In this document: positions 2 to 42,200 of the stretch, piece by piece | Position numbering within the stretch: the first letter of the stretch is position 1 | How the letters are laid out: each line of letters starts with the position of its first letter | The notes under the pieces: model-generated | Seen by the model: the letters and a program-made list of their open reading frames with translations, nothing else | Told to the model about the DNA's origin: nothing | The model's database searches: none | Assembly (NCBI GenBank): GCA_035275405.1 | Contig: DATEMU010000013.1 | Location: 186,001 to 250,000, forward strand | Direction of reading: 5' to 3' | DNA: 64,000 nt | Source of the DNA: Phycisphaerae bacterium | Lineage (GTDB): Bacteria > Planctomycetota > Phycisphaerae > UBA1845 > UTPLA1 | Made by a program: the position numbers and the translations under genes

Positions 2-3000
2 GCCGATCTCCTCTATCCAACAGCGGTCTTCACCGATGACGCCAAGACCCAACAATCCGCCTTGCTGTCGCGCACCGAAAATGCCCAGCGTGCCCTCGGC
101 GCCATCGACCTCGGCATGGCCCGCATCCTTGAGCGATTCGGCCTCCGCCCGGACCTCGCCGCCGGTCACAGCTACGGCGAACTCGTCGCCCTGTGCGTCG
201 CGGGCTGCTACGACGCCGGCGCGCTCCATCGACTCAGTCGGCTTCGTGGACGACTCATGGCGGCAGGCGATGGCGATCGCGGCGCCATGTTGGCCGTACA
301 AGGGCCGTTGGAAAAAATCGAAAGGCTTATCGAGGAGGAAAAACTCGACGTCGTTCTCGCCAACCGCAACAGCCCGGCGCAGGGCGTGCTCTCCGGCCCG
401 CGTGAGCAAATCGCCAAGGCCGCCGCGGTGTGCAAGGAACGCGGCCTCGCCGGCAAGGTGCTCAACGTCTCCGGCGCTTTCCACACCTCATCGATGCAAT
501 CCGCCGTCACGCCCCTCCGCAACGCCCTCGAAGCCGTCGCGTTCAAGGATGGCCGCTGTCCCGTGTACGCCAACACCACCGGCGAGCCGTATCTGACACA
601 AGCCTCCGCAACGAAAGACCTCTTAGCGCATCAATTGGTCCGCCCCGTCGATTTCGTGAAACAAATCGAGGGACTGTATCATGCCGGTGCACGGACTTTC
701 GTGGAGGTCGGCCCGAAATCGGTGCTCACGAGTCTTGCGGGCGCGATCCTGGGCGAGCGGCCGCATGTCGCCATTGCGATGGACGCCGCGGCCGGTCGGG
801 AATCCGACGTGCTGGGCTTGGCGCGAGTGCTGAGCCACCTGGCCGCGATGGGCTACGCCGTCGAATTGACGCGCTGGGAACGCCCTGCCGCCGAACCGCG
901 CAAGCCGAAGATGGTCGTGCCACTGGTCGGCGCGAACTATCGCGCACCGGCATCAAAGAGGATTGCGGCCAAAATGCGAGTAAGCGGACACCTGGAACGA
1001 ATTGCTCTCAAGACGACAGCCGACGAAAAGCTGCCCCAAATCCCCCGCGGCGTGCCCGCCATGAAGGAGATTGATCGAAAGCTGGTTTCGACCCAGGTCC
1101 CGACCATCGCCCGCGATCTCCCGGACACGGGGACTCCGATCTCGCCACGCACTGTGCCGCCTGCTCCAAAGGAAAACAACGCACACGCTGCGCCGCCGAC
1201 ACCCGCGACGATTCCCGCCGCGCCGAATCAAAACCCGATGCTGGCAGACGCCCTGCGGCTGGTCCAGGACGGCTTGCGATCGATGCAGGCCCTGCAACAG
1301 CAGACCGCCGCCGCGCACGAACGATTTCTCCAAAGCCAGGAGCAGGCCCACCGCGCCATCCAATCCATGCTCGAAGGCCAACAACGCCTTGTCGCGCAAT
1401 CGATGGGCTGGGCTATCCCGACGCCAACAGCGACTATTACGGAACCGCCTCCTCAATCCGCAATTCCACTTATGCCGACGAAGCTCGATCTACCCCCGGC
1501 ACCCATTGCACCCGCAGTAGCAAAGATTGTCCCCGCCGATCATTCCGCATTCCACATTCCGCATTCCGCATTCTCTTCCATCGACTCCCTCGTCCTCGAC
1601 GTCGTCTGCGAAAAGACCGGCTATCCCCGCGAAATGATCAATCTCGACATGGATATCGAGGCCGATCTGGGCATCGACTCCATCAAGCGCGTCGAGATCA
1701 TCGCCGCCATTGAGGAAAAAATGCCGGGCCTGCCAAGCGTGAAACCCGATCAGATGGGCGGTCTCCGTACACTCCGCCAGATCGTCGATTTCATGTCCCC
1801 GTCCGGTGAAGTGGCGAGCGCCGACGCGGCCTTCGTCCTTGCACCCGTTCCTCAACCCGCATCAACTCCAGTCGCCGCCGGTCGAATCGACTTCGCGGGC
1901 ACGCTTCTCGAAGTCGTCGCCCAACTGACGGGCTACCCCCGTGAAATGCTCAACCTCGACATGGACCTCGAGGCCGACCTCGGCATCGACTCCATCAAGC
2001 GCGTCGAAATCCTCGCCGGCGTCGAGGCCAAAATCCCCAACCTTCCGCCGGTCAAACCCGAGAACATGGGCGCCCTGCGGACGCTGAGTCAGATTGTCGA
2101 ATACTACGCGTCGTCGTCGCCAACTCCCGCACATGCCGTGGTCGCCACGGCGCCGGCATCGCCGGCGACAAGATCGATTGCAACGAAAAAACCGGTACAA
2201 CGATCCGTTCTCGAAATCATCGAACTTTCCCCTGGAGAGGACGTTAGGCTTACGCTGGCCCCCGGCCGCGAGATTTGGATCACCGACGACGGCTCGCCGC
2301 TCGCGCAGAGCATCCAAACGGCTATTCAAAATCGCGGAATTAGGGCCTTGCTGCTGCCTGCCGACGACATAGTCCACCGCGCCGGCGACGAGCGCGTTGG
2401 CGGACTGATTCTTCTTGCCCCTCCGTGTCCCACCAAAGACGGCCGATGGACGCGGGAATCCGAAATAGCCCTGCGTCGCGCCTTCCTCGCCGCGAAGTCC
2501 GCCGCTGACGGATTGCGATCCGCCGCGAAGGACGGTGGTGCGATCTTCGCCACGATCAGCCGCATGGACGGCGCCTTCGGCCTCATCGGCGGCGATTTCG
2601 ATCCGACGCAGGGCGGCCTCGCCGGTCTGGCGAAGACCGCCGCCCATGAGTGGCCGGACGTCGCCTGTCGCGCGATTGACATCGCCCTTGACTGGGACGT
2701 GGACGCCGCCGCCGCCGCGATCATTCAAGAGTTGGTATCTGACGGCCCGATCGAAGTCGGCCTCGCGCCGGGCCACCGACGCGGTCTCGAACTCGTTCCG
2801 GCGACGATCACCACGGAACAAGTCACTACCAATCCCGGCGATGTATTCATCATCACCGGCGGGGCGCGCGGCGTCACCGCCGAAACGGCCGTGGAGCTGG
2901 CCCGAACATGCCGACCCACGCTCGTCATCCTCGGTCGCTCGCCCCAGCCCACCGACGAACCGGCCTGGTTGAAACCGCTTGCCAACGAAACGGAGATCAA

Positions 3001-4585
3001 ACAAGCGATCCTTCGCCACGAATTCGCCGGACGACCGAATCCCACCCCCGCCGAGCTGAAATCCGTCTTCAATCGGTACATCGCCGCCCGCGAAATCCGC
3101 ACCAATCTCGCGCGGATTGCCGAGACCGGCGCGGACGTCCAATACGAATGCGTCGATGTCCGCGACAACGACGCGGTTAAGACGACCATCGATCGCATTC
3201 GCCGGCAACGCGGCTCCATCCGAGGCCTGATCCACGCCGCCGGCGTCCTGGAAGACCGGCTCATCGCGGACAAGACCGCCGAACAGTTCGACCGCGTGTT
3301 TGACACGAAGGTAGCCGGGCTCCGCAACCTTCTCGATAGCCTCGATCAAACCGAGCTACGGCATGTCATCCTCTTCTCCTCTGTCAGCGCACGCTTCGGC
3401 AACGCCGGTCAGGCCGACTACGCGATGGCCAACGAAGTGCTGAACAAAGCCGCGCGACAACTCGCCCGCCGCCTTCCGAATTGCCGCGTGACGTCAATCA
3501 ACTGGGGCCCCTGGGACGGCGGCATGGTCAACACGTCGTTGAAGCGCGAATTCGCCAAACGCGGCGTGGAGCTGATTCCGCTCGACGCCGGCGCGCGTTG
3601 CCTGATCAACGAACTCGCCTGCACCGGTCGGCCCGTCGAAGTTATCGTCGGCGGTGGACTGACCCCAACCAACGTAACGACATCGCTCCGCCAAAGTGCA
3701 GTCGCGCCGCCGGCCGAGGCCGAAATCCACGTCGCCTTCGAGCGCCGCCTCGACCTGACGCGCCATGAGTTTCTGCGTTCCCACGTGATCGGCGGAAACC
3801 CTGTCCTCCCCGCCGCAATGATGATGGAATGGCTCGCCCATGCCGCCTTGCACGCCAACCCCGGACTGCTGCTCCACGGCATCGACGACTTTCACGTGCT
3901 CAAAGGCGTCATCCTGCACGACCAATCGGTCACACTTCGCTTCTTCGCCTCGAGGGCCCGGCGAAGCGGCGACTTATTCGAGATAGACGTGGCAATGCGA
4001 AGCGTTGATGCACAGCGTGAAGTCCCTCACGCCAAGGCGACGGTCGTTCTGGCGACGCGGTTGCCCGCTGCGCCGTTGGCAACCATCGATCCGACACTCG
4101 CCGAGCGGGCCTATGGCCGTACCAAGGACGAAATCTACGCCGACGTGCTTTTCCATGGTGAGCGCCTCGAAGGCATCGCCGCCATCCGCGGCTGCGGTCC
4201 GCGCGGCCTGATCGCCGACCTGGTGACCGCGCTGGCGCCGCGCGAATGGATGGCCGATCCGTTGCGCAGCGTCTGGCTGACCGACCCGCTTGCGCTTGAC
4301 GCCGCGTTTCAGGCCGCGATTGTGTGGTGTCGCGAGGAGATGGGCGCGCCGTCGCTGCCCAGCCGTTGCAGTCGCTATCGCCAATACCGCGGCGCGTTTC
4401 CCGCCGATGGCGTCACCCTCGCACTGGAAATCCGCCGCGCGTCGGCGCACAGCGTCGCCGCCGACCTCGGTTTCTTCGACGCCGCCGGTCGCCTCGTCGC
4501 GAAGATCGACGGCTACGAATGCACTGTCGATCTCTCGCTCATCCCCGCTTTCCAGCGCCGCTCGTTCGCCGGCGCCGTGTCGTAG
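2..4585 (+). CDS. PUFA-synthase-like polyketide synthase, PfaA-type (5' end outside window)
   Basis: The frame is open to the left edge, so an N-terminal ketosynthase is presumably missing. Residue numbers count from the TTG at 62. The order is acyltransferase (about 1-270; GHSYGE nucleophile Ser37 and a downstream FHTSSM His), Ala/Pro-rich linker, two acyl carrier proteins with DLGIDSIKRVEI phosphopantetheine sites (Ser540 and Ser644), ketoreductase (about 920-1180; nucleotide-binding GGARGV near 932 and catalytic Tyr1120 in DYAMAN), and a C-terminal hot-dog dehydratase with a perfect HxxxGxxxxP motif (His1241). This order is that of PfaA/Pfa2 of polyunsaturated or secondary-lipid synthases, and tandem ACPs are typical of the family. 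The next gene starts 9 bases downstream and supplies KS, CLF, AT and DH domains, so the two probably form one operon. The product is inferred to be a long-chain or unsaturated acyl chain, but its structure cannot be read from sequence. Confidence 0.9.
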   Translation, partial: ADLLYPTAVFTDDAKTQQSALLSRTENAQRALGAIDLGMARILERFGLRPDLAAGHSYGELVALCVAGCYDAGALHRLSRLRGRLMAAGDGDRGAMLAVQGPLEKIERLIEEEKLDVVLANRNSPAQGVLSGPREQIAKAAAVCKERGLAGKVLNVSGAFHTSSMQSAVTPLRNALEAVAFKDGRCPVYANTTGEPYLTQASATKDLLAHQLVRPVDFVKQIEGLYHAGARTFVEVGPKSVLTSLAGAILGERPHVAIAMDAAAGRESDVLGLARVLSHLAAMGYAVELTRWERPAAEPRKPKMVVPLVGANYRAPASKRIAAKMRVSGHLERIALKTTADEKLPQIPRGVPAMKEIDRKLVSTQVPTIARDLPDTGTPISPRTVPPAPKENNAHAAPPTPATIPAAPNQNPMLADALRLVQDGLRSMQALQQQTAAAHERFLQSQEQAHRAIQSMLEGQQRLVAQSMGWAIPTPTATITEPPPQSAIPLMPTKLDLPPAPIAPAVAKIVPADHSAFHIPHSAFSSIDSLVLDVVCEKTGYPREMINLDMDIEADLGIDSIKRVEIIAAIEEKMPGLPSVKPDQMGGLRTLRQIVDFMSPSGEVASADAAFVLAPVPQPASTPVAAGRIDFAGTLLEVVAQLTGYPREMLNLDMDLEADLGIDSIKRVEILAGVEAKIPNLPPVKPENMGALRTLSQIVEYYASSSPTPAHAVVATAPASPATRSIATKKPVQRSVLEIIELSPGEDVRLTLAPGREIWITDDGSPLAQSIQTAIQNRGIRALLLPADDIVHRAGDERVGGLILLAPPCPTKDGRWTRESEIALRRAFLAAKSAADGLRSAAKDGGAIFATISRMDGAFGLIGGDFDPTQGGLAGLAKTAAHEWPDVACRAIDIALDWDVDAAAAAIIQELVSDGPIEVGLAPGHRRGLELVPATITTEQVTTNPGDVFIITGGARGVTAETAVELARTCRPTLVILGRSPQPTDEPAWLKPLANETEIKQAILRHEFAGRPNPTPAELKSVFNRYIAAREIRTNLARIAETGADVQYECVDVRDNDAVKTTIDRIRRQRGSIRGLIHAAGVLEDRLIADKTAEQFDRVFDTKVAGLRNLLDSLDQTELRHVILFSSVSARFGNAGQADYAMANEVLNKAARQLARRLPNCRVTSINWGPWDGGMVNTSLKREFAKRGVELIPLDAGARCLINELACTGRPVEVIVGGGLTPTNVTTSLRQSAVAPPAEAEIHVAFERRLDLTRHEFLRSHVIGGNPVLPAAMMMEWLAHAALHANPGLLLHGIDDFHVLKGVILHDQSVTLRFFASRARRSGDLFEIDVAMRSVDAQREVPHAKATVVLATRLPAAPLATIDPTLAERAYGRTKDEIYADVLFHGERLEGIAAIRGCGPRGLIADLVTALAPREWMADPLRSVWLTDPLALDAAFQAAIVWCREEMGAPSLPSRCSRYRQYRGAFPADGVTLALEIRRASAHSVAADLGFFDAAGRLVAKIDGYECTVDLSLIPAFQRRSFAGAVS
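1541..1575. repeat. Heptamer tandem array inside pfaA-like linker
   Basis: Five 7-base units are seen (CATTCCG, CATTCCA, CATTCCG, CATTCCG, CATTCTC). Their total of 35 bases is not a multiple of three, but the frame stays open. The array codes for an HSAF-type stretch in the linker just before the first ACP. It resembles the short tandemly repeated repetitive (STRR) heptamers known from cyanobacteria. Confidence 0.85.
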
Positions 4586-4594
4586 GACCGCCGA

Positions 4595-7500
4595 ATGCAC
4601 CATCAACCGGCCATTGCCGTCGTCGGCATGGGAGGAATCTTCCCCGGCGCTACTGATTTGGCCGCGTTCTGGCGGAACATCGTCGCCGGTCTCGACACAA
4701 CACGCGACGTTCCTCCAAACCGATGGATTTTGCACCCTTCCCGGGCACTGGCCGACGGCCCCAAACCCGACCGCGTGTATTCGCTTCGCGGATGCTTTGT
4801 TGACAACTTCGAGTGCGATCCAGCCGGACTGGCGATCGATCCGGGCCTGCTCCAATTGCTCGATCCCCTTTATCACCTCGTCCTCCATGCCGGCCGCGCC
4901 GCATTCAACGACGCCATAACGAGTTCCCTCGATCGCCGACGCGTAGGAGTCATCCTCGCCGCCATCGCCCTGCCGACGGACGACTCCTCAGCCATCACCC
5001 GCGAGATCCTCGGGCAGGCGTTCGAGGATCGACTGTTCGCCCAACAGGGCGACCACCGCGAGGCACCGACTCAACTCCGCACCCATCCGCTCAACAGCCG
5101 CGTCACTGGCCTGCCCGCGGCCTTGCTTGCACAGGCCCTCCAACTCGGCGGCGGAAGCTACACGCTCGACGCCGCCTGCGCGTCATCGCTCTATGCCCTC
5201 AAGCTCGCCTGCGATGAACTCCGCGAAGGCCGCGCCGACGCCATGCTCGCCGGCGGCGTCTCGCGACCCGAATGTCTCTACACGCAGATGGGCTTCTCGC
5301 AGCTCCTCGCCCTGTCCAAGTCCGGCCGCTGCGCCCCCTTCGACGACTCCTGCGACGGTCTCATCGTCGGCGAGGGTGCTGGCATCGTTGTGCTCAAGCG
5401 GCTCGACGACGCGATGCGCGACGGTGACCGCATCTACGGCGTCATCCGTGGCATCGGCCTCTCCAACGACATCGGCGGCAGCCTCCTCGCCCCCGACTCC
5501 GAGGGGCAGCTCCGCGCCATGCGCGCCGCCTACGAACAAGCCGGCTGGTCTCCCGATGTCGTCGATCTCATCGAGTGCCACGGCACCGGCACCCCCACCG
5601 GTGACGCCGTCGAGATCGCTAGCCTGCGAACGCTCTGGCAAGGCCTCGAAGACCCGCCCGCCCGCTGCCCGATCGGCTCAGTCAAATCCATGATCGGTCA
5701 CCTCCTGACGGGTGCGGGAGCCGCCGGGTTCATCAAAGTCCTCCTGGCCATGCGCGAAGGCACACTACCGCCTTCCGCCAACTATAGTGACAGCGGCCGC
5801 GTGATCCCGCTCGCGGACAGCCCTTTCCGGGTGCAGACGCAATCGGAGTCCTGGCCGCACCACCGTGACCGCCCGCGTCGCGCCGCCATCAGCGCCTTCG
5901 GCTTCGGCGGCATCAACGCCCACGTGCTCGTCGAAGAATGCATCGACCACATGGCCCATCAGAACCGCTCCCGCAAGGGAGCGCCGCGCGATTCGTCGAA
6001 GGCCAGCAGTCCTAATAACGCGAGCCAGCCGATCGCCATCGTCGGCGTGGCCGCACACTTCGGCGCCGCCAACTCCCTCCGACACTTCGAACAAAAAATA
6101 CTCAACAACCGCGCGGGGTTCCATGCGCGCCCCACCGACCGCTGGGAAGGCGGCGACAACCTCGCGCGGCAGTGGATCGGTGGGGATGGCGCGCGCGGCG
6201 CCTACCTGGAACGCCTGGCGATCCCCATCGGAAAATACCGCCTGCCCCCGACGGAAATCCCCGAAGTCCTGCCCCAGCAACTCCTGCTGCTCGATGTCTG
6301 CGCCGCCGCGCTCGAAAACGCGCGACTCCCCCTCCGCGAGAAGCGCCCGCGCGTCAGCGCAATCATCGGCATGGCCCTCGATTTCGGGACCACGAACTTT
6401 CACCTCCGCTGGTGGATCGAAGGCCAGGCCCGCCAATGGGCGGAGCGGTTGGGACTCGATCTCGATGACGACGAATTTGAGCAATGGATCACGGCACTCA
6501 AGGATGCGGCCGGTCCGGCCCTGAACGCCGCGCGGACCCTCGGCGCGCTCGGCGGCATGATCGCCAGCCGCATCGCCCGCGAATTCCAACTCGGCGGACC
6601 CAGCTACGCGGTCTCCTGCGACGAGGCCTCCGGTCTCAAGGCGGTCGAGATCGCGGCCCGCGCGCTGGCCCGCGGCGAGATCGATGCAGCCGTCGTCGGG
6701 GCCGTCGATCTGGCCGGCGATGTTCGGAACGTCGTCACATCGGCGATGCTCCGCGACCGAACTGATCGCGGAGACGCGGATTTCATCGGCGAAGGCGCCG
6801 GCGCCGCCGTGTTGAAGCGCCTCGATGACGCCCAGGCGGCGGGCGATCGCATCTACGCGGTCCTAAACCCCACAGAGGATACAGCCCGCGCTGAGGCCAC
6901 CAGGATCTCGGCGCGGGAATTCGTCGGTCGCACCGGCGCGGCCGACGGAATGGCCTCGCTCGTTATGGCTGCCCTGTGCCTCCACCACGAAATATTGCTC
7001 CCATGCGACGACTCCGATTTACCAACCTATTGGTGGCACGATCGCGCCGACGGCCCCCGCCGCGCCGCCGTGGAAGCCAAGTCCATCGACGGTGCCGACG
7101 TTTGCATCGTTCTTGAGGGATTCGAGCAATCCTCGATCCCAGCGAAGCCGATTCCAATGCCCCGTCTCTACCGCGACGCGCTCTTCGCCATCGAAGCTGA
7201 CAATGTAATAGGACTCCTAGCCGGTCTGGGCGACCTCGCTTCCCATCGCAGTGAAGACCTCTCCAATCTCGCCCGACAATGGCACGATCAGCATCGCCCG
7301 GCGCGCGATCGCCGCCTCGCCGTCTCCATCGTCGCGTCCTCGCACGAAGAACTGACCGACGCCCTTTCCACCGCGCGATCGGCCCTATCGAACGATCCCG
7401 ACCAACCGCTCGACGGCCGCAAGGGTGCGTTCTACAACCCGACGCCGCTCGGCCCGACCGGCCAACTCGCCTTCGTCTTCCCCGGCTCCGGCAACCACTT

Positions 7501-10500
7501 CCCTGACATGGGCAAGGGCATCGCCCTTCGTTGGCCCGACATCCCCCGTGCCCTTGACCATGTTACGCAGCGGCTGCGTAGCCACTTAATCCTCGGCGCA
7601 TCGCCCGACGACCCGTCTGCCGATGACAGTGTCCATCGCAACATCTTCCGCCAAGTCTCTTATTGCGTTTTGATGAGCGATCTCCTCCGCCGCTTCGGAC
7701 TCCAGCCCGACGCCGTGATCGGCTACAGCCTCGGCGAATCCGCCAGTCTCTTCGCCCTCCGGGCCTGGCCCGACCGCGACGAGATGTTCCAACGCATGAC
7801 CCGCAGCCCGCTCTTCAAATCCGATCTCGCCGGCCAGTGCCGCGCCATCCGCGCTGCCTGGAACATCCCCGACGATTGTCCGGTCGATTGGACCGTCGCC
7901 GTCGTTGGCCGACCGGTCGAACAGGTCCGCGAGGCGCTCCGAGGAGTAGAACACGCGCGGCTGCTGATGGTCAACTCGCCCCGGGAATGCGTCATCGGGG
8001 GCCTTCGTCCGGACATGGCCGAAGTCACCCGTCGCCTGAAGTCGCGGGCAGTTCTGCTCGAAGGCATTCCCACGGTCCATTTCGAGGCCGTGCGCGAGGT
8101 CGAAGAGGCGTATCGCGACTTGCACCTATTGGAAACCAAGCCGCCCGCCGGCGTCCGTTTCTACAGTGCCGCCGCGGCCCGCGCCTACGACGTCACCCGC
8201 GCCAGCGCCGCCGAATCGATCACGGCCCAGGCCCTGCACGGTTTTGACTTCCCCGCATTGATCGAGCAGGCCTACGCCGACGGCGTCCGCCTCTTCGTCG
8301 AAGTCGGCCCACAGGCCTCCTGCACGCGGATGATCGGCCGAATCCTCGCCGGCCGCCCACATTTTGCCCGCTCTGCGTCGTCAAGCGGGGACAACGAAGT
8401 GCGCGACGTCTTCCAACTCGCCGCCGCGATGATCGCCGAGCGCATCCCGGTCGACATGGACCTCCTGCTGGGGGAAGCCACCTCTGAAGCCGAAGATCTG
8501 TCGCCTGAGAAGCCCGCCAAGACCGTTACCGTCGAAATCGGGCGGAAGCTGTCCGTGCCGCCGCTCCCCGTTAAACGATCGCGACCGCCGCAGCGCGGAG
8601 CCGCACCGCCTGCCCGTACCGTTGAACCCGTACCTGTAGCGGCAGGCGAATACTCCGATAACACTGTCGTCGCCGAATGGTCGCGCACGGCCGCAGCCTG
8701 CGCCTCCGCCCATCGCGCGTATCTGCAATTCTCCGAAGCGGCCGCCGGGGGAATGGCCTCGGCTCTCGCCTTTCAGTCGCAAATCCTCGAATCCATGGTC
8801 GGCGCGGGTGACGGAACAATTGCACTGGCCGATCTGATCCCCGATCAGAGCCCCTCGCGCAAGGGAGCGCCGAGTGGGCCTTCGGATGTCGCGCGGCGCT
8901 CCTTTACAGTCACGGCTCTGAACAAGCCGGTTCTTTCACGAGACCTCTGCCTCGAATTCGCCCGCGGATCCGTCGCCAAAGTTCTCGGCCCCGAATTCGC
9001 CGAAGTGGACCGCCACGCCACCCGCGTCCGCCTGCCCGATGAGCCACTCATGCTCGTCGACCGCATCATGGAGATCGACGGCGTCAAAGGCTCGATGACC
9101 AGCGGTCGCGTCGTCACTGAGCACGACGTCCTCGCCGATGCCTGGTACCTCGACGGCGGTCGCGCCCCGATCTGCATCACCGTCGAGGCCGGTCAGGCCG
9201 ACCTCTTTCTCTCCGCCTACCTCGGCATCGACCGAATTACGAAGGGCCTGCGGACCTATCGCCTCCTCGACGCGACGGTCACCTTCCACCGCGGCCTGCC
9301 CCGACCCGGCGAGACGATCCGCTACGACATCCGCATCGAAAAATTCGTCCGCCAGGGCGAGACGTATCTTTTCTTCTTCCAATTCGACGGTACGGTAAAC
9401 GACGTGCCGGTGCTGACCATGCGAAATGGCTGCGCCGGCTTCTTTACGGCCGATGAAATCCGCAACTCGCGAGGGATCGTGTTAACGCCGGAAGAATTGG
9501 CCCCGACAACGGGCACACTCCCCGCCGACTGGCGACCGCTTGTTTCCATGTCGGCCGAATCCTACGACGAGGCGAATTTGACGGCCCTGCGCGGCGGCGA
9601 CCTCGCCGGTTGCTTCGGCCCGGTCTTCACAAACCTTCCCATTGCCGACCCGCTCAAGCTCCCCGGCGGTCGTATGAAGTTGATTGATCGCGTCACACAG
9701 CTCGATCCGACCGGCGGTCGCTACGGTCTGGGCGTCATCCGCGCGGAGGCCGACATCCACTCCGACGACTGGTTCCTGACGTGCCATTTCGTCGACGACA
9801 TGGTCATGCCCGGCACGCTCATGTACGAATGCTGCGCCCATACCCTGCGGATGTTCCTCCTGCGCATGGGCTGGGTCGGCGAGCACGCCGAAATCTGTTA
9901 CGAGCCTGTACCCGGCGTGGCCAGTTCCCTTCGCTGCCGTGGCCCCGTGACGCCGAAAACAAAGATTGTCACCTACCAGGTGGAAATCAAGGAGATTGGC
10001 TACCGACCGGAGCCCTACGTTCTTGCCGACGCCATGATGTACGCCGACGGCGAGGCCATCGTCCGCATGACAAACATGTCCCTGCAAATGTCCGGCACAA
10101 ACCGCGAGCGAATTGAACAAATCTGGCGGCTGCGCGAGGGGAGGACCCGTGGCAAGCTTGCCACGGGCTTTACCACGAAAACATCCTCCGCGCCCCTTTT
10201 CACCCGCGATCAGATCCTCGCCTTCTGCATCGGCAATCCGTCCGACTGTTTCGGCGAACCCTTTCGCATCTTCGACCGCCATCGAAAATGTGCCCGCCTC
10301 CCCGGCCCGCCGTACTGCTTTTTGGATCGCGTGGTGTCTGCGGAACCCGAACCCTTCGCCCTCGAGCCCGGCGGCTGGATCGAGTGCGAATACGACGTGC
10401 CGCGCGATGCCTGGTACTTCGCGGCGAACCGCCAAACGTCAATGCCTTTCGCCGTGCTGCTGGAAATCGCCCTGCAACCCTGTGGCTTCCTTGCGGCGTA

Positions 10501-11350
10501 CGCCGGCTCGGCATTGACGAGCGAGACGGACCTCTCCTTCCGCAACCTCGGCGGCACGGCGACGCTGCACGAAGAACTCTTCGCCGACTGCGGCACGCTC
10601 CGGGTCCGCGTGCGCATGACCGACGTCTCCAGCGCCGGTGGCATGATCATTGAGCAGTTCGACATGCAGGTCTGGCGCGGCCACCGGCTCGTTTACGACG
10701 GAAAGACGTCGTTCGGCTTTTTCTCAAAGGCCTCGCTCGCCCAGCAAGTCGGCATCCGCGACGCCAAAGACCGCATCTACGTCCCACCTCACGCAGAGGC
10801 GCAGAGGCGCAGAGATCGATTCAGCCTGCCGAACGATCCGCCATTCACACCCGACGATGCGACAGCTTCGCCTCAAGCCTCAAGCCTCAGGCCTCAGGCC
10901 TTTCTGCCCGCCCGCGCCTTCCGCATGATCGACCAGATCGACGTGCTCCTCCCCGACGGCGGCCCGCACGGTCTCGGCTTCATCCAGGGCTCGACCCGCG
11001 TCGATCCGGCGGCGTGGTTCTTCAAGGCCCACTTCTACCAGGACCCCGTCTGGCCCGGTTCGCTGGGGCTGGAGTCCTTCCTGCAACTCCTCAAGGTCTT
11101 CGCCCTCGACCGTTGGCCGGATTTGGCGGCGACCCACCGCTTCGAACCCATTGCCGCCGGCACGCCCCACACCTGGGCCTACCGCGGCCAGATCATCCCT
11201 TCCAACCGCCGCGTGGAGGTTCAGGCCGTCATCACCCGCCACGACGATGGCCCGACGCCGACTGTAATGGCAGACGGGTTTTTGTCCGTCGATGGGATTA
11301 CCATCTACGAAATGAAGAACTTCGGATCTAGGTTGACCTTTCTGAGATAA
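4595..11350 (+). CDS. PUFA-synthase-like megasynthase, PfaC/Pfa3-type: KS-CLF-AT-DH-DH
   Basis: A 2251-residue protein. Domain 1 is an active ketosynthase (about 4-450) with Cys195 in DAACASS, His329 in CHGTGTPTGD and His369 in IGHLLTGAG. Domain 2 (about 475-900) is a KS-fold chain-length factor: the nucleophile position is Glu677 (SCDEASG) and the GH motif is replaced by VGRTGAADG, so it cannot condense. Domain 3 (about 955-1270) is an acyltransferase with GYSLGES (Ser1045). After a Pro/Ala linker come two FabA-like double hot-dog dehydratases. Their catalytic halves carry HFVDDMVMPG (His1731) and HFYQDPVWPG (His2146). The order matches myxobacterial Pfa3 without its terminal AGPAT domain. 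It is co-directional with the PfaA-type gene and probably co-translated. Five short repeats of different families lie in frame in its inter-domain linkers. No enoyl reductase gene follows. Confidence 0.92.
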   Translation: MHHQPAIAVVGMGGIFPGATDLAAFWRNIVAGLDTTRDVPPNRWILHPSRALADGPKPDRVYSLRGCFVDNFECDPAGLAIDPGLLQLLDPLYHLVLHAGRAAFNDAITSSLDRRRVGVILAAIALPTDDSSAITREILGQAFEDRLFAQQGDHREAPTQLRTHPLNSRVTGLPAALLAQALQLGGGSYTLDAACASSLYALKLACDELREGRADAMLAGGVSRPECLYTQMGFSQLLALSKSGRCAPFDDSCDGLIVGEGAGIVVLKRLDDAMRDGDRIYGVIRGIGLSNDIGGSLLAPDSEGQLRAMRAAYEQAGWSPDVVDLIECHGTGTPTGDAVEIASLRTLWQGLEDPPARCPIGSVKSMIGHLLTGAGAAGFIKVLLAMREGTLPPSANYSDSGRVIPLADSPFRVQTQSESWPHHRDRPRRAAISAFGFGGINAHVLVEECIDHMAHQNRSRKGAPRDSSKASSPNNASQPIAIVGVAAHFGAANSLRHFEQKILNNRAGFHARPTDRWEGGDNLARQWIGGDGARGAYLERLAIPIGKYRLPPTEIPEVLPQQLLLLDVCAAALENARLPLREKRPRVSAIIGMALDFGTTNFHLRWWIEGQARQWAERLGLDLDDDEFEQWITALKDAAGPALNAARTLGALGGMIASRIAREFQLGGPSYAVSCDEASGLKAVEIAARALARGEIDAAVVGAVDLAGDVRNVVTSAMLRDRTDRGDADFIGEGAGAAVLKRLDDAQAAGDRIYAVLNPTEDTARAEATRISAREFVGRTGAADGMASLVMAALCLHHEILLPCDDSDLPTYWWHDRADGPRRAAVEAKSIDGADVCIVLEGFEQSSIPAKPIPMPRLYRDALFAIEADNVIGLLAGLGDLASHRSEDLSNLARQWHDQHRPARDRRLAVSIVASSHEELTDALSTARSALSNDPDQPLDGRKGAFYNPTPLGPTGQLAFVFPGSGNHFPDMGKGIALRWPDIPRALDHVTQRLRSHLILGASPDDPSADDSVHRNIFRQVSYCVLMSDLLRRFGLQPDAVIGYSLGESASLFALRAWPDRDEMFQRMTRSPLFKSDLAGQCRAIRAAWNIPDDCPVDWTVAVVGRPVEQVREALRGVEHARLLMVNSPRECVIGGLRPDMAEVTRRLKSRAVLLEGIPTVHFEAVREVEEAYRDLHLLETKPPAGVRFYSAAAARAYDVTRASAAESITAQALHGFDFPALIEQAYADGVRLFVEVGPQASCTRMIGRILAGRPHFARSASSSGDNEVRDVFQLAAAMIAERIPVDMDLLLGEATSEAEDLSPEKPAKTVTVEIGRKLSVPPLPVKRSRPPQRGAAPPARTVEPVPVAAGEYSDNTVVAEWSRTAAACASAHRAYLQFSEAAAGGMASALAFQSQILESMVGAGDGTIALADLIPDQSPSRKGAPSGPSDVARRSFTVTALNKPVLSRDLCLEFARGSVAKVLGPEFAEVDRHATRVRLPDEPLMLVDRIMEIDGVKGSMTSGRVVTEHDVLADAWYLDGGRAPICITVEAGQADLFLSAYLGIDRITKGLRTYRLLDATVTFHRGLPRPGETIRYDIRIEKFVRQGETYLFFFQFDGTVNDVPVLTMRNGCAGFFTADEIRNSRGIVLTPEELAPTTGTLPADWRPLVSMSAESYDEANLTALRGGDLAGCFGPVFTNLPIADPLKLPGGRMKLIDRVTQLDPTGGRYGLGVIRAEADIHSDDWFLTCHFVDDMVMPGTLMYECCAHTLRMFLLRMGWVGEHAEICYEPVPGVASSLRCRGPVTPKTKIVTYQVEIKEIGYRPEPYVLADAMMYADGEAIVRMTNMSLQMSGTNRERIEQIWRLREGRTRGKLATGFTTKTSSAPLFTRDQILAFCIGNPSDCFGEPFRIFDRHRKCARLPGPPYCFLDRVVSAEPEPFALEPGGWIECEYDVPRDAWYFAANRQTSMPFAVLLEIALQPCGFLAAYAGSALTSETDLSFRNLGGTATLHEELFADCGTLRVRVRMTDVSSAGGMIIEQFDMQVWRGHRLVYDGKTSFGFFSKASLAQQVGIRDAKDRIYVPPHAEAQRRRDRFSLPNDPPFTPDDATASPQASSLRPQAFLPARAFRMIDQIDVLLPDGGPHGLGFIQGSTRVDPAAWFFKAHFYQDPVWPGSLGLESFLQLLKVFALDRWPDLAATHRFEPIAAGTPHTWAYRGQIIPSNRRVEVQAVITRHDDGPTPTVMADGFLSVDGITIYEMKNFGSRLTFLR
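5966..5983. repeat. Small hairpin repeat in the KS-CLF linker
   Basis: CGCTCCC and GGGAGCG arms (7 bp) surround a GCAA loop. The segment GCAAGGGAGCGCCG recurs at 8859-8872, in the AT-DH linker of the same gene. Both copies are read in the same frame as SRKGAP. Confidence 0.75.
8861..8905. repeat. Second copy of the SRKGAP repeat, with inverted arm, in the AT-DH linker
   Basis: AAGGGAGCGCCG at 8861-8872 is followed after 21 bases by CGGCGCTCCTTT at 8894-8905, an 11-of-12 inverted match. The start of the element is shared with the copy near 5973. It lies where the linker meets the first dehydratase. Confidence 0.65.
10146..10167. repeat. Perfect 22-bp palindrome between the two dehydratases
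   Basis: CCCGTGGCAAG is followed directly by its exact reverse complement. It is translated as RGKLATG in the linker between DH1 and DH2 of the PfaC-type protein. It resembles REP-type palindromes and serves no obvious coding need. Confidence 0.8.
10792..10815. repeat. Octamer tandem repeat (CGCAGAGG) in frame within DH2
   Basis: Three consecutive 8-base units are seen (CGCAGAGG, CGCAGAGG, CGCAGAGA) between the two hot-dog halves of the second dehydratase. They encode AEAQRRR. Similar CGCAGAGGCGCAGAGG-type repeats are, from memory, common in cyanobacteria and other large genomes. Confidence 0.75.
10871..10898. repeat. Heptamer tandem array (CCTCAAG/CCTCAGG) within DH2 linker
   Basis: Four 7-base units (CCTCAAG twice, then CCTCAGG twice) are translated as part of QASSLRPQA between the hot-dog halves. 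The same family recurs inside dapF at 12074-12108. Confidence 0.85.
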
Positions 11351-11770: not shown

Positions 11771-12676
11771 TTGGCCTCTCATCCAACCAGCCTGAAATTC
11801 ACCAAAATGCACGGGCTCGGCAACGACTACATCTACGTCGAAGGCTTCACCCAGCCCCTCGACGACCTCGACGCCCCCGCCCTCTGCCGCAGGATGAGCG
11901 ACCGCCACAAGGGCATCGGCGCCGACGGTCTCATCCTCATCCGCCCGCCCTCGCCCGGCGCCGCCGCCGACGTCCGCATGGAGATGTACAACGCTGACGG
12001 CTCGCGCGGCGAGATGTGCGGCAACGGCATCCGCTGCGTCGCCAAATACGTCCTCGAACGCGGCTTGGCGAAACCTCAAGCCTCAGGCCTCAAGCCTCAA
12101 GCCTCACTCCGCGTCGAAACCGACCGCGGCGTCCTCGACCTAACCTGCCATCGCAGTCCCGACGGCAAGATCGACCGCGTCCGCGTCAACATGGGCGAGC
12201 CGATCCTGAAGCCCACCGACATCCCCGTGACGATGGACGGCCCGCGCTGCGTCCGCCAGCCGCTCTCTGTCGGCGAGGAACAGTACGAAATGACCTGCGT
12301 CTCCATGGGCAACCCCCACGCCGTCTTCTATTTGCCGTCCCTTGAGGCGATGGACCTCGCCCGACTCGGCCCGATCATCGAACGCCACCCCGTCTTTCCC
12401 AACCGCATCAACGTCCACGTCGCGGAGGCCGTCTCGCGCTGCGAAGTCACGATGCGAACCTGGGAACGCGGCACGGGTCTCACCCAGGCCTGCGGGACCG
12501 GGGCCTGCTCCGTCCTCGTCGCCGGGGTCCTCGAGGGCCGGCTCGAACGCTCCGCGCTCATCCACCTGCCCGGTGGGGATCTCGAAATCGAGTGGGACGA
12601 AGCGACGAACAGCGTCTTCAAGACGGGCCCGGCAACCGAGGTATTCAATGGTGAATGGCGAATCCAAGAAGTATGA
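11771..12676 (+). CDS. dapF: Diaminopimelate epimerase
   Basis: Interconverts LL- and meso-diaminopimelate for lysine and peptidoglycan synthesis in the cytoplasm. The N-terminus reads FTKMHGLGNDYIYV. The two catalytic cysteines lie in EMCGNGIRC and TQACGTGACS. The start is a TTG at 11771, placed to include the conserved N-terminal strand. At 301 residues it is longer than the usual 270-280. Part of the excess is an Ala/Gln/Lys/Pro segment (KPQASGLKPQAS) after VLERGLA, coded by a heptamer array. The array falls at a surface loop between conserved blocks, so the enzyme is probably active. Neighbours are housekeeping genes in the same direction. Confidence 0.95.
   Translation: MASHPTSLKFTKMHGLGNDYIYVEGFTQPLDDLDAPALCRRMSDRHKGIGADGLILIRPPSPGAAADVRMEMYNADGSRGEMCGNGIRCVAKYVLERGLAKPQASGLKPQASLRVETDRGVLDLTCHRSPDGKIDRVRVNMGEPILKPTDIPVTMDGPRCVRQPLSVGEEQYEMTCVSMGNPHAVFYLPSLEAMDLARLGPIIERHPVFPNRINVHVAEAVSRCEVTMRTWERGTGLTQACGTGACSVLVAGVLEGRLERSALIHLPGGDLEIEWDEATNSVFKTGPATEVFNGEWRIQEV
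12074..12108. repeat. Heptamer tandem array inserted in frame in dapF
   Basis: Units CCTCAAG, CCTCAGG, CCTCAAG, CCTCAAG and CCTCACT span 35 bases. This is the same family as 10871-10898. The array codes for the KPQASGLKPQAS insertion that is not part of the usual DapF sequence. Confidence 0.85.
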
Positions 12677-16383: not shown

Positions 16384-16478
16384 GAATGACGAATTGCGAA
16401 TAGCGAATAGCGAAAGAAGAGCAAGCCAACGCCGCCTCCCGCGCCATTCGCTATTCGCCATTCGCTATTCGCTATTTG
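16384..16478. repeat. Inverted pair of heptamer arrays between ruvA and ruvB
   Basis: The left arm (16384-16411) has units GAATGAC, GAATTGC, GAATAGC and GAATAGC. The right arm (16444-16478) has CCATTCG, CTATTCG, CCATTCG, CTATTCG and CTATTTG. The right arm is the reverse complement of the left-arm type, so the transcript could fold into a long hairpin ahead of the ruvB ribosome site. Confidence 0.8.
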
Positions 16479-17692: not shown

Positions 17693-17715
17693 AGGGAGCT
17701 CTCATAAGTTCTTTC

Positions 17716-17765
17716 TGACTAGCCAAGCAAGAGTCAAAACTGACTAGCCAAGCAAGAGTCAAAAC
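17716..17765. repeat. 25-bp perfect tandem duplication in the leader of the PEP-CTERM gene
   Basis: Two exact adjacent copies (17716-17740 and 17741-17765), each beginning TGACTAGCCAAGCAAG, lie just after the sigma-54 promoter. The copies would fall in the 5' untranslated leader. Confidence 0.9.
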
Positions 17766-39213: not shown

Positions 39214-42200
39214 CTATCTCACTTTGACTGTCGCGTACGCGGACCAGGCCGAGTTGCCGTTGCCGTTGAACGCCCGCACGCGGTACCGGAACTGGCCGGC
39301 GCCCGGCGCGTCGGTGTACGTCGTCACATTGGCCCCGACGTTGAACGTCGTCGTATTCGTCCAGTTGCTGCCCACGCGCTTCTGCCGCTCAATCTGGAAG
39401 CCGGTCTCATTGCCGGAATTATCCTGCCACGTTACGCGCGCCTGGCCGCCGCCGAGGTCCGTCGCGGTCACGTTGCTCGGCGCGTTGGGTGGCACGTTCA
39501 GAAAAACCGCCGTCACCGTCTTGTTGGAGTTCATCAGCAGCGTCGTCGGGTTCGTCGAGCCGGTCAGCGCGCCTTCCCAACGATCGAAGGTCCAGCCGGC
39601 CACCGGCGTCGCCGTCAGCGTCACCGTCGTGCCCGACAGATAGCTGCCACCCGGGGGATTGAGCGCCACGCTGCCCTGACCGGTGATGTTGACCGTCAGC
39701 GTGTAGGTGTCCTGCACGAACACCGCCGTCACGGTCTTGTTGGAGTTCATCAGCAGCGTTGTCGGGTTCGTCGAGCCGGTCAGCGCGCCTTCCCAATGAT
39801 CGAAGTGCCAGCCGGCGACCGGCGTCGCCGTCAGCGTCACCGTCGTGCCCGACAGATAGCTCCCACCCGGGGGATTGAGCGCGACGCTGCCCTGGCCGGT
39901 AGTGTTCACCGTCAGCGTGAAGGTGTCCTGCACGAACACGGCCGTCACGGTGTAGTCGACGATCATCCACAGCGTCCTCGGGTTCGTCGAGCCGGTCAGC
40001 GCGCCTTCCCAATGATCGAAGCGCCAGCCCGGGGCGGCATTTGCCGTCAGCGTCACCGACGTCCCGTACGGGTAGGTCCCGCCCGGCGGGTTGAGCGCAA
40101 CCGTACCCTGACCGGTGACGTTGACCGTCAGCGTGCGCGTGTCCGCTGCGAACACCGCCGTCACGTTCTTGTCGGCGTCCATGACGAGCGTGGCCGGGTT
40201 GGTCGTACCGGTGACATCGCCCGTCCAATGATCAAAGTGCCAGTTCGCGGCCGGATTCGCGGTCAGCGTCACTGTGGTGCCATCGGGGTAGATCGGGCCG
40301 GTCGGGTTCAGCGCCACGCTGCCCTGACCGACCGCGCCAACGTTGAGCGTGTGCGTGGACTCCTGCGACCCAACGCCCCAGATCTGGATGTCGTCGATGT
40401 TCCAGCCGGAATACGGGACCGCCCCGAAGTTTTCCACGCCGTGGCCCCAGCGGATGTACACGTTCGGCTGGTTGTCGGCGACGGAGCTGATGTCGTACGA
40501 CTGGAGCGACCAGGCGTCCTCCGTGATCTCGCTCTCGCCGATCGACCAGACCTGTGTCCAGTTCGTGCCGTTGTTCGAGACTTCGACGGTGCAATTCACG
40601 TACGGTTCAAAGTCGCTGTTGAGCCAACGACGGAATTTCAGATTGACCAGGGCAATGCCGCTCAGGTTGATCGGCCCCGCGGTCAGGTAGTTCATGCCGA
40701 CGAGTTCGTAGACCCAGTAATTGCCATTCAGATTGATGCCATACACGTTCGTGCCGCTATATCCGCTCGTCGGATCAGGGAAACCGTAGCCGCCACCCTG
40801 GCCGGTGGGCTGGCCGAACCCCCACTCACCTTGCATGCTCCAGCCGGGACTGGTGTCGAGGTTCCACTCTATCTGGAGGCTGGGGGCGCCGACTGCCAGC
40901 GCCACCGGACGTGTCGTGTTGCCGACCTGGTCCGTAAGGTTCGTGAAGCTCACCGTGTCGGTGTACGCACCGGTCGCCAGGCCGTCGGCGCTGGAATTGA
41001 TCGACACGATCACGGTCGTCGTGGCATGTCCGGCCAGCGTACCCGACATGTTCGACAAATCGAGCCAAGCCGCGGTCTTGGACACGCTATAGTCGATCGG
41101 CGTGTCGTACAGGTTTTCCAGGGTGTAGGTCACGCTGTCGGGCGAGAATGGTCCGCCCACGGGTCCGGCCGAGTCCAGGCCCGTCGCCGGAATGACGCTC
41201 AGCCCGACCGGCAGCGGCGGGCAGTCCATGTTGTGGGCGCCAAAGCCGGCGCAGATTTCCGTCCGGTGCGGCGTGCCATTGTTGATGTTGCCGTCGTCGT
41301 CGTCGAGCGTCAGGAAGTCAATGGTGATCTGCGGGGTGATCTGGGTCCCGCCGTGGAGCAGAATCGAGTTCACCGTCAGGTTGGAGAGAATCTGGAGGTA
41401 GGTAGCGGGGTTGGTGGCGAGGAGTTCGTTCCGCGTGCTCCAGACGCAGCCGGAAATAAGCTGGCCGCAGTCGTGAATCTCGCCCGAGCACGGGTATTGA
41501 ATCGTGTTGTCCGCATTCCGCAGCCCCGAATTGCAGTCGCCGAAGAAGCCGAAGCCGCACACCGGGTCGTCGGCGATGAGCAGGCCAATGCAGTCGGACA
41601 TGCCTTCGCCGTACTGTCCCTGCCCGCTGCCGCCTGAGGTGACCATGTGGTGGCCGTACTCGTGGTGGACGATGTTGCTCCAGGCTGTGTTGGGATAGCT
41701 GCCGCTCGAGAGGCAGAAGTTGATGGAGCTGTAGTCATACCACGCGTTGCCGGGGCAATAGCCATCAGTGCGGTTGACGTAGATCGGGAAGTCCGTCTGC
41801 GTGCTGATCGTCGGGTAGCTGGGGTTGTACGTCAGACAGAAATCGCGGACGACGTTCGCCTGGACATAGGCGTTGATTTGCGCCCGGACCTGCTCGTCAG
41901 TATTCGCGGCATTGTGCATGAAGTCCGCCGGGCCGGGCGGCGTCACCGCCAGAGACAGCGTCTCCTCGGCCCCTTGCACGTTGTCGACGAAGAAGTACTG
42001 CCCGCTCATCGGCGACTGCACCGTGACCTGAGCGCTGCCGCCGTTGGGAATCGTGAAGTTGCCGTCGGCGTCGGCAAACGTGCTGTTGCCACCCACGACG
42101 CTTACGATGGCCCAGGGCAGGGCGGTGGCCTGCTCCGCCGCGCAGAAGTCCGCTTTGGGGCCGGTCGTCGCCATTCCGCTCACGTTGCCGGTGAGGTCGG

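Follow-up and report, generated by a model that had tools for sequence, protein, structure and literature searches.

A PfaC-type megasynthase gene of a Phycisphaerae bacterium carries five short repeat-like motifs within one reading frame, which raises the questions of whether these are true repeats, how such sequences would enter a coding region, and whether the gene is exceptional in holding them. The gene lies at 4595–11350 on the plus strand of the window (the whole 64,000-nucleotide stretch that was analysed, contig C13 from 186001, in a genome of 5.29 Mb and 19 contigs) and encodes 2,251 aa. ORF and Pfam analysis revealed two KS domains, an AT-like domain and FabA-like hot-dog domains (matches to ketoacyl-synt, to Acyl_transf_1 just below cut-off, and to FabA in three stretches). 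This KS-KS-AT-like arrangement with a FabA-like dehydratase is that of a PfaC-type PUFA synthase subunit, in agreement with an AlphaFold analysis that gave a confident predicted model of residues 1856–2251. All five motifs are present in the ORF and translation crosses each of them without a stop, as the original prediction had stated; its further claim of five different repeats held for two dispersed arrays (10792 and 10870) and was not supported for the other three motifs as dispersed families. Taken together, the results make it probable that numerous short tandemly repeated repetitive (STRR) families are present in the genome, dispersed and then filtered by tolerance of translation, with the PfaC linkers and a DapF loop serving as recurrent sites for the repeats of each lineage.

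Repeat motifs of the PfaC-type gene

Motif searches were performed over the genome with the reversed pattern as control. A hairpin with a 7-bp stem (CGCTCCCGCAAGGGAGCG, 5966–5983, no strand assigned) lies in the KS-KS linker, and a 15-mer (CGCAAGGGAGCGCCG, 8858–8872, plus strand) occurs again at 5972–5986, encoding SRKGAP at both places. A gene as long as PfaC is expected to contain 0.92 hairpins of the quality seen at 5966, and 13% of its codon-shuffled versions include a repeated 15-mer; therefore, neither the 5966 nor the 8861 motif stands above chance as a repeat. The genome contains one exact copy of the 5966 hairpin, its core GCAAGGGAGCG gave 6 matches versus 4 for the control, and relatives gave few matches to the 5966/8861 hairpin at 2 mismatches. 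A hairpin family at 5966/8861 was thus rejected as a genome repeat.

The motif at 10146–10167 (no strand assigned) is a perfect 22-bp palindrome, CCCGTGGCAAGCTTGCCACGGG, followed by CTTT, and is located in a linker whose length varied freely in an alignment of 20 homologues. The palindrome is unusually long, as only two with a half-site of at least 11 and no loop were found in 1.66 Mb. One exact genome copy and one with two mismatches were detected; in the 29-nt sister copy, GACCCGKGGCAAGCTTGCCMCGGGCTTTA, the two differences pair with each other, forming a compensatory change from T:A to G:C. A looser, terminator-like palindrome with the GGCAAGCTTGCC core ends in a T-run. The palindromes that share this core with the 10146 motif thus number two, both with the ending GGGCTTT(T), and one is intergenic with a T-run. 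As the genome contains no more than three palindromes of this kind, the motif was rejected as a widespread repeat, and it lacks the many in-frame copies in unrelated genes that mark rickettsial-type elements. An alternative is that the motifs act as DNA or RNA (as a terminator, a protein binding site or a structure) and occur in genes only incidentally, the 10146 palindrome in particular being an intrinsic terminator-like element. The GGGCTTT(T) endings would agree with such a role, as would the intergenic position of most 7- and 8-mer arrays and the association of four-unit heptamers elsewhere with quadruplexes (PMC4692102). This alternative is judged unlikely, considering that the low-copy palindrome is translated in its genic copy and that the other families in this genome seem to have no common G-tract design.

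The two remaining motifs lie between two hot-dog halves, as predicted, and both belong to dispersed families. The octamer array CGCAGAGG (10792–10814, plus strand, 2.9 copies) is translated as HAEAQRRRD. The CCTCAAG heptamer array (10870–10901, plus strand, 4.6 copies) consists of four units plus CCT, two of the units being CCTCAGG, and is translated as SPQASSLRPQAF. Each was characterized by Tandem Repeats Finder (TRF), alignment and a structural model, together with a genome search for the octamer and a genome census for the heptamer. At up to one mismatch, the octamer pattern CGCAGAGGCGCAGAG matched the genome 35 times and the heptamer pattern GCCTCAAGCCTCAA 82 times, each against 0 for the control, while the same search revealed no dispersed family for the hairpins or the palindrome.

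To what extent these arrays are insertions was judged from an alignment of 20 PfaC homologues of the same family and order and from a second alignment of 67 further sequences from genome contigs, covering the last 396 residues only. The octamer zone contains 31 residues here and 30 in 40 of the 67 homologues, with the extra residue also present in the best-matching relatives G002 and G013, giving a net length of 0 to +1 aa. An E..R.R pattern is kept in this zone of the homologues, and in the AlphaFold model the octamer peptide forms part of a well-folded helix turn (pLDDT ~96). The homologue length, the retained pattern and the helix-turn placement indicate that the octamer replaces sequence in place rather than inserting. 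The heptamer zone contains 23 residues, compared with a mode of 18 among the 67 homologues and ~21 in G002 and G013, corresponding to a net +2 to +5 aa; pLDDT falls to 71–76 exactly at the heptamer, in a loosely predicted loop between the hot-dog halves. Judged from alignment and model, neither array is a clean insertion in PfaC. The earlier description of the motifs as inserted was thus too strong for this gene, applying in part to the heptamer and hardly to the octamer, for which homologues lacking the DNA repeat retain the length and a similar Glu/Arg pattern, in part refuting the original reading. A CATTCCG heptamer array, overlooked at first, lies in the upstream megasynthase gene (2–4585) at 1541–1573 on the plus strand, in the linker that precedes the first of the carrier-protein domains (TRF and Pfam), where it encodes HSAFHIPHSAF with little or no net insertion.

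The fact that PfaC and the upstream gene differ little in net length from their homologues, together with the freedom of linkers to vary in length, would be compatible with genic arrays growing locally by replication slippage from a chance seed in fast-evolving linkers, with no dispersal of copies. Slippage is distinctly unlikely to be the explanation, as one heptamer recurs at ~40 unlinked sites, where its arrays begin alike and measure ~31 nt, controls showing none, and as the family is patchy, being abundant in some genera and absent from their sisters.

Distribution and orientation of the arrays in the genome

The array survey covered 1.66 Mb in stretches, many of which were picked for CCTCAAG or CGCAGAGG matches, so that its counts are not a genome-wide rate; genes were called with a home-made hexamer model, by which 87% of the 1.66 Mb is coding. 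TRF detected 79 period-7 and 33 period-8 arrays, versus 1 and 0 in a Markov-resampled control, and the families include CCTCAAG, CGAATAG, CATTCCG, AGGGAAC, CCCTCAAT and AAAAGTCA. The lengths of the period-7 arrays have a sharp mode at 31 nt, which for CCTCAAG corresponds to four units plus CCT. Other repeats observed in the window are opposed (CGAATAG)n and (CGCTATT)n arrays, which fill the ruvA-ruvB gap (16390–16476) and could form a long hairpin, a perfect tandem duplication of the 25-bp unit CTGACTAGCCAAGCAAGAGTCAAAA (17715–17765), and a 216-bp unit in 3.6 copies inside a large minus-strand gene (39506–40281).

A census of CCTCAAG comprised 42 clusters, representing nearly all genome matches, with two near contig ends left out. 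Twenty-four of the 42 clusters are inside genes, all in the sense orientation and none antisense (P ~1e-7); 16 are intergenic and two, both antisense, coincide exactly with the 3′ ends of genes. Among the 24 genic clusters, four are in weak or N-terminal contexts (three in L257 and one in L229), and without them the count becomes 20/20 sense. The two antisense arrays, L251 9268 and L255 9095, extend over the final codons of genes and seem to provide their stop codon. The CTTGAGG strand contains TGA in all three frames, whereas the CCTCAAG strand has no stop in any and encodes (PQASSLK)n. Since neither 7 nor 8 is divisible by 3, the same cyclic peptide results from every frame of an array, and therefore orientation and net length alone matter, not the frame of landing. 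The CCCTCAAT and AAAAGTCA families also have stops in one orientation only, and genes show just the readable peptide. The genic share of CCTCAAG (57%) is below the coding share of 87%, suggesting that copies are also purged from genes. In 0.54 Mb of stretches not picked for repeats, 11 of 12 seven- and eight-mer arrays were intergenic and one was genic, indicating that CCTCAAG is the family that enters genes most and that the other 7/8-mer families are mainly intergenic.

This distribution is probably accounted for by the presence of many STRR families, mostly with 7- or 8-nt units in ~4.4 copies, whose new arrays are placed around the genome by some copying process, and by selection that removes the arrays that break genes. 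The survivors in coding sequence would be those with a stop-free orientation, a frame-keeping net length and a site in a loop or an interdomain linker.

Consensus CCTCAAG units make up 65% in genic copies versus 39% in intergenic ones (P ~2e-4), and the higher purity suggests that the genic copies are younger. The genic copies are nearly pure and the intergenic ones bear CCTCAGG and TCTCAAG units; the mixed order CCTCAAG-CCTCAGG-TCTCAAG recurs in a genome of another family (G039). When copying of whole arrays was sought through recurring unit orders, 8 identical pairs were found versus 4.5 expected, which was not significant (P 0.07). CCTCAAG is present in 10 of the 61 genomes, namely its own and nine relatives with 2 to 65 matches, and gave zero matches elsewhere. 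A tentative reading regards CCTCAAG as a discrete ~31-nt unit engaged in active copying, with a pure and recent subfamily that prefers genes and gives the lineage steady loop insertions of 10–11 residues in essential enzymes; the fixed four-and-a-half-unit length across unrelated units would then point to one shared copying machinery. This reading is possible, if rather doubtful.

Host proteins and recurrent sites

The hosts identified by Pfam and PDB comprise MutS, a Ser/Thr kinase, a CofH/MqnC-like radical SAM protein, amidohydrolases, UbiD, GH31, MetH, DapF, RNase R and a dihydroorotate-dehydrogenase-like protein with a ferredoxin domain, and SMC hosts the CCCTCAAT family at its hinge. Several of the array sites are loops inside domains, besides interdomain linkers. 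Comparison with solved structures showed the array region of MutS to be longer by 8 aa, before EIIDGRHPV, that of the PknB-like Ser/Thr kinase by 15 aa, between NILV and the DFG motif, and that of RNase R by about 31 aa, between the DDA motif and LGVHIADVS. In the RNase R gene (L237 8603–10981), a hairpin, GCGAGAAGGGATTCTCGC, is located directly before the heptamer array within the 31-aa insertion. A second CCTCAAG host near the megasynthase genes is dapF (diaminopimelate epimerase; 11771–12676, plus strand; Pfam and PDB), whose array (12074–12106, plus strand; TRF), also overlooked at first, encodes PQASGLKPQAS between GIRCVAKY and LRVETDRG. The net addition in DapF is about +6 to +8 aa relative to PDB structures and +3 to +8 aa relative to family members. 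Most heptamer hosts gain less than the 10–11 aa encoded by the array, and an accompanying deletion or replacement is therefore needed. As regards absence at the orthologous site, net additions were seen in MutS, the kinase, RNase R and DapF, but only 0 to +5 aa in PfaC; the nearest genome in the comparison belongs to another genus.

The presence of several families in one gene had been regarded as special. Many genes bear arrays, and several (L244, L250, L276 and L230) hold two or three, often of different families; PfaC is therefore not exceptional in this respect. It is one host among many, and landing-site tolerance is general rather than peculiar to PfaC.

Selection of the repeat peptide itself (PQASSLK and the like) for a function, such as a flexible spacer or a recognition tag, is very improbable. 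The peptide is always identical regardless of frame and the genic copies are nearer to pure CCTCAAG, both of which such a function would explain, yet the younger age of the genic copies would explain the purity equally well. Moreover, the hosts (MutS, the kinase, RNase R, MetH, DapF, UbiD and GH31, with SMC for another family) are unrelated and their sites differ, homologues do without the peptide, and different peptides of other families occupy the same kinds of site.

Tolerance of the sites is supported by the repeats of related genera. In G006 and G014, two species of a single genus in the family to which this genome belongs, the search for a repeat of 29 bp, GTCCCCCAGCCCCAGAGGGGCAGGGGCAC, gave 113 and 120 matches (control 0); genome searches of G016 and G008 gave no matches to it. 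The 29-bp repeat occurs in two PfaC linkers of both G006 and G014, which are the linkers of the 8861 and 10146 motifs here, and PfaC of G008 has octamer arrays in those two linkers and in a third place. In DapF, the loop that bears the heptamer here holds the 29-bp repeat twice in G006, has a form of GTCCCCCAGCCCCAGAGGGGCAGGGGCAC in G014 and a long insert in G003, and is short in most relatives. These sequence comparisons support the predicted role of the PfaC linkers as tolerated landing sites, in that these PfaC linkers and this DapF loop appear to be reused by unrelated repeats, each proper to its lineage. Such reuse would provide a direct map of insertion-tolerant sites in enzymes. All six frames of the 29-bp repeat are free of stops, and its genic copies are found in both orientations (4 sense and 3 antisense), which fits the prediction of the tolerance model. 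A natural experiment is thereby provided, in which a stop-bearing orientation is never found within genes, a stop-free one is common, and a six-frame-open repeat of a relative occurs both ways.

Two further features were observed in these dapF genes. In G014 (L354), the reading frame shifts inside the 29-bp repeat insert and the gene is split into two frames, which may be a sequencing error in the G-rich repeat. The loops of G006 and G014 (L353 and L354) also share an insert encoding LTPALSLSKGEG, which resembles the translation of a CCCTCTCCC...GGGAGAGGG-type palindromic repeat.

Comparison with known repeat systems

The cyanobacterial STRR sequences are tandem heptanucleotide arrays dispersed in the genome, as are the arrays described here, although the units and the phylum differ; the ~31-nt length and the genic orientation bias are measurements on the present genome only. 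CCTCAAG shares with dispersed heptamer STRRs of the TAACTGA-like kind the occupation of many unlinked sites far above chance and a patchy distribution. Three STRRs in Calothrix are cited in PMC4692102. The GGGAATC/GGGGAYT heptamers of Xanthomonas and Nostoc mostly have about four units (Rehm et al. 2015, PMC4692102), and they are G-rich, quadruplex-forming and under-represented in ORFs. The present heptamers are likewise dispersed with a majority of about four units; in contrast, the G tracts of CCTCAAG reach no more than GG, on one strand, and no G-tract pattern is common to the other families.

The TAACTGA direct repeats are dispersed heptamers of Beggiatoaceae, Cyanobacteria and Bacteroidetes (MacGregor 2015, PMC4679880), found mostly in intergenic regions upstream of starts or at protein ends, with one orientation laden with stops (PMC4679880). 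In both systems, dispersed heptamers of a few units are patchy across taxa and encode one peptide whatever the frame; one of the two orientations is full of stops, some of the copies lie within ORFs, and stop-bearing copies are found at gene ends. Besides a different sequence and the presence of several families in one genome, CCTCAAG departs from the mainly intergenic pattern of TAACTGA-like repeats, in that 57% of its arrays (24/42) are genic and several are in loops within conserved enzyme domains.

The rickettsia palindromic elements and the intragenic GTAG/CGTC REPs are palindromic precedents that are translated in proteins (PMC3733652). Like these short repeats, which are in frame inside unrelated proteins and presumed to be tolerated, CCTCAAG has many copies, many of them in frame in unrelated genes; unlike them, it and the other families are tandem heptamers or octamers with no palindromic structure, only the low-copy 10146 motif being palindromic. 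A limited literature search found no published account of heptamer STRRs in planctomycetes. The mode of these arrays thus resembles that of known repeats, and the new features are the share of copies in conserved enzymes and the number of families present at once: tandem heptamers, besides palindromic elements, colonise protein-coding sequence on a genome scale.
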